Positions 56,833 to 59,591 of a DNA stretch of 64,000 bases are shown in pieces; position 1 is the stretch's first letter, and each line of letters starts with the position of its first letter. The translations under genes and the position numbers were made by a program. The notes beneath the pieces were generated by a model. That model had not been told where the DNA came from, made no database searches, and saw only the letters and a list, made by a program, of their open reading frames with translations. The stretch spans positions 1 through 64,000 of the forward strand of contig JAAYLX010000049.1 of assembly GCA_012521705.1 (NCBI GenBank). The letters are read 5' to 3'. This DNA comes from Clostridiaceae bacterium. Its GTDB lineage: Bacteria > Bacillota > Clostridia > DSM-8532.

Positions 56833-58677
56833 TTAAGGCTCCTTGTCATTCGAATTCAGGTATGCCTTTATTTGCTCCGCAAGTTTTGGGCCTATGCCCT
56901 TTACTTTGGCAATATCCTCAATCGGTGCCTCTTTAATTTTCTTTACAGAGCCGAAGACCTTCATAAGAATCTTTTTGCGGGAAGAACCCACACCGGGGAT
57001 TTCGTCGAGGGCGGAACTTTGCATCCGTTTTCTCCGGAGATTCCTGTTATATGCCAGGGCGTAGCGATGGGCCTCATTTTGTACCGATGAAATAAAGCGC
57101 AGAATATCCCTGTCCTTGTTGAGGTAGAAGCCCGTTTCACCGTTTACCAGGCGGTGGGATCTGTGCTTGTCATCCTTTGCCATACCCCAGACCGGAACAT
57201 TAATGCCCAGATCCTCAAGAACTTCCTTTGCAGCATTGACATGCTGGGCTCCGCCGTCCACCAGTATAAGATCGGGCAAATCGGAAAAGGCCTCATCATT
57301 GGAGCCTGACAGATAGCGGTTAAACCTTCTCAACAGAGTTTCCTGCATGCTTGCATAATCATTCTGTTCTGTCGCTGCCTTCATTTTAAACCTTCTGTAA
57401 TGCTGGGTTTCAGGTTTCCCGTCTATAAATACCACCATGGAAGCAACAATCTCGGTACTTCCCGTGTTGGAAATATCATAGGCCTCAATTACCGAAGGCA
57501 ACTTGTCCAGCCGTAGAATATCCTGAAGCTTTCCAAGGACCTCCCGGGATTTCGCCTGATTTGCAAGAACCTTTCTGTTAAACAGCTCAAGTTCTTCTTT
57601 AGCATTTTGCTCCGCCATATCTATGAGATCCGCCTTGATTCCCCTTTTTGGAACCAATAGTGTTACCTTGCTTCCCCTTTTTTCAGACAATATTTTAGAT
57701 ATGCCTTCCATGTATTCTGGTTCATACTGGAGGGCTATTTCTTTCGGTATCTTTGCTCCGTCGTCATAGAACTGTATCATAAAAGTTTCTATAACTTCGC
57801 CCGGAGGGGATGACCCAAAGCCCTCAAGAACAAATGATTTTTTCCCTGTAAGCCTTCCGTCGCGAACTGAAAGAACACTGACCGCACAATGATAATCATT
57901 GGCATAGGTCGCAATAATATCTCGCTCTTCAAATTTGAGAGAATAAACAGCCTGTTTCTTGTAGAGCTCATTGACGCTCTTTATGCGGTCTCTTAATACT
58001 GCCGCCTTTTCGAATTTCAACTCTTCCGCAAGCTTTTCCATTTCCTCTTTCAGTTTTTTGATAACCTCATCGTGTCTGCCTTCCAAAAACGCAATGGCAT
58101 TCTTGACCAGATCATTGTATTCTTCCCTGGATATCATACCTGCGCACGGAGCAGAGCAGAGCCCCAGATGATAATACAGGCAAGGCCTTTGCTTTTTGTC
58201 GGGTGTTATCTGCCGGCGGCATGTCCGTATGGGGAACAGGCGCCTTAGTAACTCCATTGATTCTTTTACAGCATTGACTTTGACAAAGGACCCGAAATAT
58301 CTTGACCCGTCATTTTCTATCTTTCTGGTCATTTCCACTCTGGGAAATTCTTCCTGGGTGGTTATTCTGATATATGGATATGTTTTGTCGTCCTTAAGAA
58401 GAATGTTGTACTTGGGTTTATGTTTCTTGATAAGGGTATTTTCCAATATAAGAGCTTCTTCTTCGGTACGTGTCACAATATATTCAAGGAATCTGACGTT
58501 TGATACAAGTCTTGTGGTCTTTGCGTCCCGATCCTCACGGTGCTGGAAATAAGATCTGACCCTGTTTTTGAGGATCCTTGCCTTACCGACATATATTATT
58601 TTTCCGTCCTCGTCCCTCATAATATAGACTCCGGGCAATTCAGGAAGGTTTTTTAATGTTTCGGACAATTCATTCAC
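56833..58677 (-). CDS. uvrC: Excinuclease ABC subunit C
   Basis: This protein of about 614 aa has an N-terminal GIY-YIG nuclease (GVYIMRDEDGKIIYVGKA), a Cys-rich clamp (CRRQITPDKKQRPCLYYHLGLCSAPC), a UVR domain, an RNase-H-like endonuclease domain (IEAYDISNTG, LILVDGGAQHV) and C-terminal helix-hairpin-helix motifs. It makes both incisions in nucleotide excision repair. GTG 58677 has the best spacing from GGAGGTG. TTG 58683 is too close. Confidence 0.96.
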   Translation of the reverse strand: MNELSETLKNLPELPGVYIMRDEDGKIIYVGKARILKNRVRSYFQHREDRDAKTTRLVSNVRFLEYIVTRTEEEALILENTLIKKHKPKYNILLKDDKTYPYIRITTQEEFPRVEMTRKIENDGSRYFGSFVKVNAVKESMELLRRLFPIRTCRRQITPDKKQRPCLYYHLGLCSAPCAGMISREEYNDLVKNAIAFLEGRHDEVIKKLKEEMEKLAEELKFEKAAVLRDRIKSVNELYKKQAVYSLKFEERDIIATYANDYHCAVSVLSVRDGRLTGKKSFVLEGFGSSPPGEVIETFMIQFYDDGAKIPKEIALQYEPEYMEGISKILSEKRGSKVTLLVPKRGIKADLIDMAEQNAKEELELFNRKVLANQAKSREVLGKLQDILRLDKLPSVIEAYDISNTGSTEIVASMVVFIDGKPETQHYRRFKMKAATEQNDYASMQETLLRRFNRYLSGSNDEAFSDLPDLILVDGGAQHVNAAKEVLEDLGINVPVWGMAKDDKHRSHRLVNGETGFYLNKDRDILRFISSVQNEAHRYALAYNRNLRRKRMQSSALDEIPGVGSSRKKILMKVFGSVKKIKEAPIEDIAKVKGIGPKLAEQIKAYLNSNDKEP

Positions 58678-58714
58678 TACCAATCACCTCCATTTTCCCT
58701 CCCGGCACACGAAC

Positions 58715-58742
58715 AACAAAAAGCCGGCTTAAAAAGCCGGCT
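58715..58742 (-). terminator. Terminator of the HPr-like gene
   Basis: AGCCGGC and GCCGGCT form a 7-bp GC stem with a T-rich loop, followed on the minus strand by TTTTTG. It separates the HPr-like gene from uvrC. Confidence 0.85.
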
Positions 58743-58759
58743 CCAATTATTTTGTAATT

Positions 58760-59023
58760 CTATTCGGTCATTCCATTGTTTGCAAATACCTCAAGTTCTG
58801 CCAAAGCTGTTGTCTCGTCCCTTCCGTCGGTGATGATGGTTATTGTATCACCCGGGCTTATCCCCAGGGACAGAAGACCCAAAAGACTTTTTGCATTGGC
58901 TTTTCTTTCACCTTTTTGCACCCAGATATTTGACTCATAGCTTGATGCCTTTTGAATCAGTCGAGCGGCCATTTTGGATTCCAAATCTGTTTTTGTCGAT
59001 ATAGTAACTTCTTTTGATATCAT
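58760..59023 (-). CDS. HPr-like protein with His15 replaced by Glu (Crh-like)
   Basis: This 87-residue protein aligns over its full length with HPr. In HPr numbering the PTS phosphoacceptor His15 is Glu15 (TDLESKMAA instead of TGLHARPAA), and Arg17 is Lys. The HPr-kinase site Ser46 is kept in NAKSLLGLLSLG. It therefore cannot relay PTS phosphate at residue 15 but could still be phosphorylated at Ser46 and act with CcpA, like Bacillus Crh, whose residue 15 is Gln. ATG 59023 has GGAGG at 10 bases. The longer frame to 59191 crosses the promoter. It lies upstream of uvrC. Confidence 0.92.
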   Translation of the reverse strand: MISKEVTISTKTDLESKMAARLIQKASSYESNIWVQKGERKANAKSLLGLLSLGISPGDTITIITDGRDETTALAELEVFANNGMTE

Positions 59024-59069
59024 AATGAACATTCCTCCATAGCGGTTACCCTGTGTAACTGCAATTTGT

Positions 59070-59098
59070 ATTATACTATATAAGATTAAAAATTGAAA
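59070..59098 (-). promoter_or_regulatory. Probable promoter of the HPr-like gene
   Basis: On the minus strand, a perfect TATAAT (59075-59070) lies 17 bases from TTTCAA (59098-59093), in a very AT-rich stretch about 50 bases upstream of the start. The -35 is weak. I saw no clear cre box. Confidence 0.45.
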
Positions 59099-59249
59099 GG
59101 GGATTTTGAGCATATAATTTTCCATCAAAAATGCATAAATCTTGTATAAATAATGTATAAAATCAAAAAAGGTCCCATATTTATGCAACAAATGTCCTAT
59201 TTTACTTTTTGTAAACTCAAGTTATTCTTTATTCTGGGTGAATATTGTA

Positions 59250-59591
59250 ATGTCTATACAAATTTATAAATATGTTTCGCCTTGTGGAAGGGTTATACCT
59301 GTCAAGGCTGCAAATACATTTATTAAAAGATTTTTTGGGTTAATGGGAAAAAAAGAGGGAAATTACGGTATTCTTCTTGAATCCTGCAAGCGTATGCACA
59401 CCTTCTTTATGAGATATCCATTGGATTTAGTCTACCTGGATAAAGATAACTGCGTTGTCTTAACAAAAAGGATCATCATGCCCTTCAGAATCGCCCCCCA
59501 TGTGAATAATGCTGCCAGGATCCTCGCATTTCCATCCTCGCTCAACGCCATGGCTTTTCTGAAACAGGGAGATAAAATCACCCTTGAATAG
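59250..59591 (+). CDS. DUF192 family protein
   Basis: This 113-residue protein matches DUF192 (RFFGLMGKKEGNYGILLESCKRMHTFFMRYPLDLVYLDKD, then NAARILAFPSSLNAM). Many members have a signal peptide, and this one has none. The function is unknown. It starts at ATG 59250, or at the GTG four codons earlier, with only a weak ribosome site (CTGGGTG). It is alone on the plus strand. Confidence 0.85.
   Translation: MSIQIYKYVSPCGRVIPVKAANTFIKRFFGLMGKKEGNYGILLESCKRMHTFFMRYPLDLVYLDKDNCVVLTKRIIMPFRIAPHVNNAARILAFPSSLNAMAFLKQGDKITLE

Follow-up and report, generated by a model that had tools for sequence, protein, structure and literature searches.

The HPr-family gene located at positions 58,760–59,023 of the minus strand of the window (the whole 64,000-nucleotide stretch that was analysed) raises the question of what role is left for an HPr homologue that lacks the phosphoacceptor histidine. 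The encoded protein (87 aa) contains Glu in position 15, where the PTS phosphocarrier HPr has this His, and retains Ser in position 46, the target position of HprK. An earlier sequence-only reading placed both residues in the HPr register and gave no strand for the gene, which is encoded on the minus strand. Translation and the alignment of 31 copies from the same family confirmed the register and, with it, the loss of the PTS phosphoacceptor.

The gene, its product and its locus

The amino-acid-coding part of the gene occupies positions 58,763–59,023 of the minus strand and is closed by a TAG stop codon (58,760–58,762), while the plus-strand reading of 58,760–59,023 contains internal stops. 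According to the translation and the family alignment, codon 15 (58,979–58,981, minus strand) is GAA and codon 46 (58,886–58,888, minus strand) is AGT. A ribosome-binding site of its own, the Shine-Dalgarno sequence GGAGG (59,034–59,038, minus strand), precedes the ATG by 10 bases. The next gene downstream is uvrC (56,833–58,683, minus strand; TIGR00194, 602.6 bits), a conserved neighbour of the HPr locus. A terminator-like stem-loop of 11 pairs, recognised by its match to the consensus, is located between the two genes (58,720–58,744, minus strand).

Just before the Shine-Dalgarno sequence, the leader contains the inverted repeat GCAGTTACACAGGGTAACCGC (59,042–59,062, minus strand), the pattern of which occurs once in the window versus 0.08 expected. 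A related GTTAC-CTTGG-TAAC element occupies the corresponding position in relatives from two genera (loci L041–L058) but does not occur there in other genera. A conserved RNA hairpin was unsupported, the consensus fold having an energy of −0.63 kcal/mol and four other pairs; since RNA folding gives no consensus hairpin, the repeat may be a DNA operator. The Rfam search of positions 58,600–59,300 gave five matches, all below the gathering score.

Analysis using Pfam assigned the protein to the HPr family (PF00381, PTS-HPr; 86.6 bits versus the cut-off of 23). The AlphaFold model (mean pLDDT 92.9) has the HPr fold with helix A formed by residues 16–26 and helix B by residues 47–52, residues 15 and 46 each directly preceding a helix. 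Its best match in the PDB is 7FF5 (rmsd 0.8, 57% identity over 84 columns). The protein has Glu where a PTS phosphocarrier HPr has His15 and, with the Ser46 block NAKSLLG intact, corresponds to the definition of Crh as an HPr homologue without His15 and with Ser46. Its score with NF010354 (PRK13782), which we take to be the Crh model, was 80.1 bits and did not reach the curated cut-off of 123.

As for the identity of the locus, uvrC was found near the HPr gene in 54 of the 77 named loci of the genome collection. The genome from which the window originates (G000) possesses the cluster hprK-murB-rapZ-yvcK-whiA without an HPr gene; Bacillus crh presumably follows whiA. Since the whiA cluster contains no HPr gene and uvrC is the neighbour, the Glu15 gene represents a separate HPr locus, namely, the clostridial uvrC-linked locus and not the whiA-linked crh of the Bacillus type.

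Conservation of the protein and its kinase, EI and second HPr proteins

A relative of the Glu15 protein was present in 54 of the 61 genomes searched. The protein itself was found in 31 of the 32 family genomes, the exception (G021) being 75% complete. Residues Glu15, Ser16, Lys17 and Ser46 and the Asn43–Gly49 block were invariant in all 31 copies. The number of invariant columns was 36 of 87, and Glu15 is thus unexceptional within the family. Codon 15 is GAA in 20 copies and GAG in 11; silent changes were seen at the sites looked at (codons 15, 16, 17, 46 and 48), and internal stops were absent from the family copies. Chance and a sequence error at residue 15 are both ruled out, because all 31 copies contain Glu with silent codon change. 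Judging from these alignments, the protein is under purifying selection in the family. Codon 13 (58,985–58,987, minus strand) encodes Asp in the window copy alone among the 31 family copies and Gly in all the others.

The kinase sought in line with the sequence-only reading was detected: G000 contains one HprK gene (TIGR00679, 378 bits versus the cut-off of 240). HprK was found in 30 of the 32 family genomes and in all 24 with a completeness of 90% or more and a contamination of 5% or less. Together with the intact serine block, this agrees with the Crh-like regulatory role proposed by that reading, and the joint absence of HprK and CcpA, which it regarded as fatal to its proposal, does not occur here. 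In a few family genomes, the C-terminal model of HprK gave short additional hits within open frames some 300 aa long (G022, contig C83; G029, C24; G019, C51), perhaps HprK-related kinases of another kind.

Full EI, recognised by the EI N-domain, was identified in six of the 32 family genomes, all of one genus (G000, G004, G006, G011, G012 and G013); in a seventh genome, the match was a fragment containing a stop. Exactly these six contained a second full-length HPr; EI and the second HPr were both missing from the others, with the absences of EI, as of HprK and CcpA, resting on draft genomes, several of which were less than 90% complete. In G000, EI is located beside its own His15 HPr, the second copy that had been proposed for search, and the two belong to a mannitol-PTS cluster that also includes IIA- and IIB-like genes and mannitol-1-phosphate dehydrogenase; most genomes with the Glu15 protein have no EI.

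All seven second HPrs of the family (two in G006) contain His15. Position 46 is Ser in three of them and another residue in four, namely, Arg in G004 (L255) and G012 (L250), Lys in G011 (L259) and Asn in one of the two G006 proteins (L251). In G004, G011 and G012, no full-length HPr other than the Glu15 protein has Ser46; since the second His15 HPrs of these genomes lack this residue, transport and regulation there appear to be split over two proteins.

G000 contains three HPr-family genes in all. The third encodes a truncated HPr-like protein (L003 1393–1686, contig C49) which lacks the beginning of the HPr model and keeps a DAKSIMG serine block. A similar partial match was found in 28 of the 32 family genomes, and this protein is a possible second substrate of HprK.

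Among the 54 genomes with a match, a His15 HPr was present in 15 of 15 with EI versus eight of 39 without EI, where G036 and G038, with EI found only as pieces at contig ends, were counted among the 15, and fragments in G017 and G056 were scored as no EI. The link was strong among the family genomes but weak among the others (9/9 versus 8/14; p = 0.048 in the Fisher test, which ignores kinship). The rule that the loss of EI entails the loss of His15 holds only partly: His15 can outlast EI. A His15 HPr-like protein without detected EI was found in the class genomes G035, G039, G040, G048, G049, G052, G054 and G055.

Because HprK is nearly universal in the family, EI is rare there, residues 15–17 and 43–49 are invariant and the fold is that of HPr, the Glu15 protein is probably a PTS-inactive, Crh-like signalling protein. 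The eight of 39 EI-less genomes that keep His15 count against this assignment, as does the composition of the LacI-family proteins considered below.

CcpA-like repressors and related systems

The most familiar role for such a protein is that of classic Crh, in which the form phosphorylated at Ser46 brings about carbon catabolite repression by binding to a CcpA-like LacI repressor. HprK is available for this purpose, and six LacI-family proteins are encoded by G000, one of which is 41% identical to CcpA of B. megaterium. The ccpA model TIGR01481 (cut-off of 442 bits) gave a best score of 260 bits in G000 and 282 bits in the family, and none of the 32 family genomes exceeded the cut-off. The same cut-off was reached by none of the 118 sampled Clostridia genomes and was dropped as proof of the absence of CcpA; for this reason, contact residues are the better test.

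Residues of the LacI proteins were read at the positions aligned to residues 295, 296, 303 and 307 of B. megaterium CcpA. Of these, Arg303 and Lys307 are assumed here to contact phospho-Ser46, and Asp296 presumably lies near residue 15. The sample comprised 34 proteins of 26 family genomes, that is, 31 of the 78 CcpA-like matches plus three additional LacI proteins of G000, with the other 47 matches outside it. The Arg303–Lys307 pair was present in none of the 34 proteins, including all six of G000, versus eight of the 13 top matches from other Clostridia. The best CcpA-like protein of G000 has Glu and Arg at the two positions. In addition, six family genomes yielded no CcpA-like match at E ≤ 1e-50, and Arg17 of HPr is replaced by Lys in the Glu15 protein. 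No canonical CcpA was thus seen among the 34 LacI proteins examined, although a diverged one is possible in the family. Since none of these proteins has the contact pair, action of the Glu15 protein on CcpA appears doubtful from the residues compared; the search for CcpA suggested by the earlier reading left the Crh/CcpA pair in question, and the classic Crh role is a possibility to which we give limited credence.

The same role has been proposed for a relative. PMC3656788 describes the Crh-like protein Ccel_0806 in Ruminiclostridium (Clostridium) cellulolyticum, a species without an HPr orthologue or cognate EII, and proposes a model of catabolite repression by the P-Ser46 Crh-like protein with CcpA homologues. 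PDB entry 7FF5 is a phosphocarrier of R. cellulolyticum with Asp15 in the alignment and is probably Ccel_0806. It has the same fold as the Glu15 protein, no His15 and a conserved Ser46 block, differs in having Asp15 instead of Glu15, and represents the closest known system. According to PMC3656788, a Crh-like protein without HPr is therefore already in print for a relative. Among openly licensed papers, none was found that reports the Glu15 form, its family-wide fixation or the absence of the CcpA contact pair, and none on 7FF5, which, for a search of openly licensed papers only, is weak evidence.

B. subtilis Crh (PDB 1ZVV, 1MU4) likewise has the HPr fold without His15, a conserved Ser46 and HprK in its genome. 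However, it combines Gln15 with a preserved Ala16-Arg17-Pro18 sequence, whereas the window protein has Glu15-Ser16-Lys17-x; the Bacillus gene occupies another locus, the window gene being linked to uvrC; and canonical CcpA is present in Bacillus, unlike among the LacI proteins examined in the family.

Residue 15 and the remaining explanations

In relatives, the uvrC-linked locus encodes Asp, Gln, Asn, Gly or Ala at residue 15. Acetivibrio has Glu15, most Ruminiclostridium have Asp15 and some Asn. The conservation of Glu15, which the sequence-only reading had proposed to examine by alignment, is thus complete within the family (31/31) and gives way to variation in other relatives. That reading had also held that His15 in relatives at this locus would reveal a sequence error; His15 is indeed still found there, only in distant families, and reflects evolution, not an error. 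A quick UvrC tree was made from 72 loci, after rows with UvrC pieces shorter than 270 residues had been dropped; the His15 rows have long branches in it. On this tree, residue 15 undergoes no fewer than 15 changes over nine states, with at least five changes for His versus the rest and at least five for Glu versus the rest. The family forms one clade, all with Glu15. The idea of Glu15 as a unique state was rejected, since relatives carry several other replacements at the same locus; on the aligned sequences, several residues have replaced His15, and Glu15 is the one fixed in the family. Some copies in other class members, with no uvrC at the locus and with leaders resembling the end of whiA (an adjacency judged by eye), also have no His15 (Tyr in L240, Gln in L243, Asn in L244 and Glu in L245); the loss of His15 therefore probably occurred at two or more loci.

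These data bear on the suggestion of the earlier reading that Glu15 follows a different logic, being a true phosphomimetic. The protein would then resemble an HPr permanently phosphorylated at His and hold one binding mode, which Ser46 modulates. An acidic residue 15 in all 31 family copies, in Acetivibrio and in most Ruminiclostridium is consistent with this, as are laboratory mutants with an acidic residue 15 and Ser46 kept. According to PMC3526391, His15Asp in HPr relieves repression in T. saccharolyticum, and the in vitro work cited there indicates that such HPr can still be phosphorylated on serine; a study of His15Glu HPr is also cited. However, these mutants are single changes in PTS-active HPrs, whereas the window protein carries an old natural change in which the whole loop is altered and residues 16–18 change together with residue 15. 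Moreover, relatives of the sister group (Acetivibrio/Ruminiclostridium) have Gln, Asn, Gly and Ala at the same locus, and separating acidic residues from the rest requires eight changes on the UvrC tree. Residue 15 of HPr directly precedes helix A, as also stated in the abstract of PMC8509676, and Glu, Asp, Asn, Gln and Gly are structurally plausible in this position of the model; the replacement can therefore be explained without phosphomimicry, which is not needed to account for Glu15. We consider a phosphomimetic role unlikely, and the new logic was not borne out. The authors of PMC3526391 expect His15Asp to disrupt CcpA binding; if this effect held here, the Glu15 protein would fit canonical CcpA poorly, in line with the finding of no canonical CcpA.

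Instead of a repressor, the main target might be an enzyme such as methylglyoxal synthase. Unphosphorylated Crh of B. subtilis reportedly targets the methylglyoxal synthase MgsA, and a similar protein is encoded in 31 of the 32 family genomes and in all 24 of the more complete ones. However, only nine of the 32 exceed the curated cut-off for methylglyoxal synthase, and the enzyme is common anyway, which makes this target quite improbable. Finally, a decaying former HPr without function, as the loss of His15 and the failure to find EI in most of the family might suggest, is scarcely credible, being contradicted by the invariant columns, silent codon changes and stop-free frames of the family copies.

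For the PTS-inactive, Crh-like protein, the following scheme may be proposed. The lineage would have lost the general PTS, and the uvrC-linked HPr its phosphotransfer loop, with His15-Ala16-Arg17-Pro18 replaced by Glu-Ser-Lys-x. In the simplest case, the replacement by Glu15 would have been tolerated because of its position directly in front of helix A and would later have become fixed. The Ser46 switch would remain, with HprK adding or removing phosphate according to the metabolic state and the two forms binding partners differently; the output partner is probably not a canonical CcpA. In the six EI genomes, including G000, transport by a separate His15 HPr and regulation would reside on two proteins. 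Somewhat tentatively, HprK and the Glu15 protein may constitute a stand-alone metabolic sensor that works without the general PTS or canonical CcpA and, where a PTS is present, leaves transport to a His15 protein, often one lacking Ser46, and regulation to a separate protein with Ser46 and no His15.

The role for which Crh is chiefly known is to assist CcpA alongside a functional PTS. Most members of the family appear to have lost the PTS for sugar uptake, and the Glu15 protein, as far as its sequence allows us to judge, is a real but largely recognisable regulator. The findings suggest more than one origin of Crh-like proteins. In these relatives of industrially interesting cellulose-degrading clostridia, the Ser46 arm of HPr appears to persist in the absence of both the PTS and a recognisable CcpA, which makes the genomes of the family well suited to studying how HprK and P-Ser-HPr act by themselves. 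The main point is an HprK switch that apparently operates with neither EI nor canonical CcpA.
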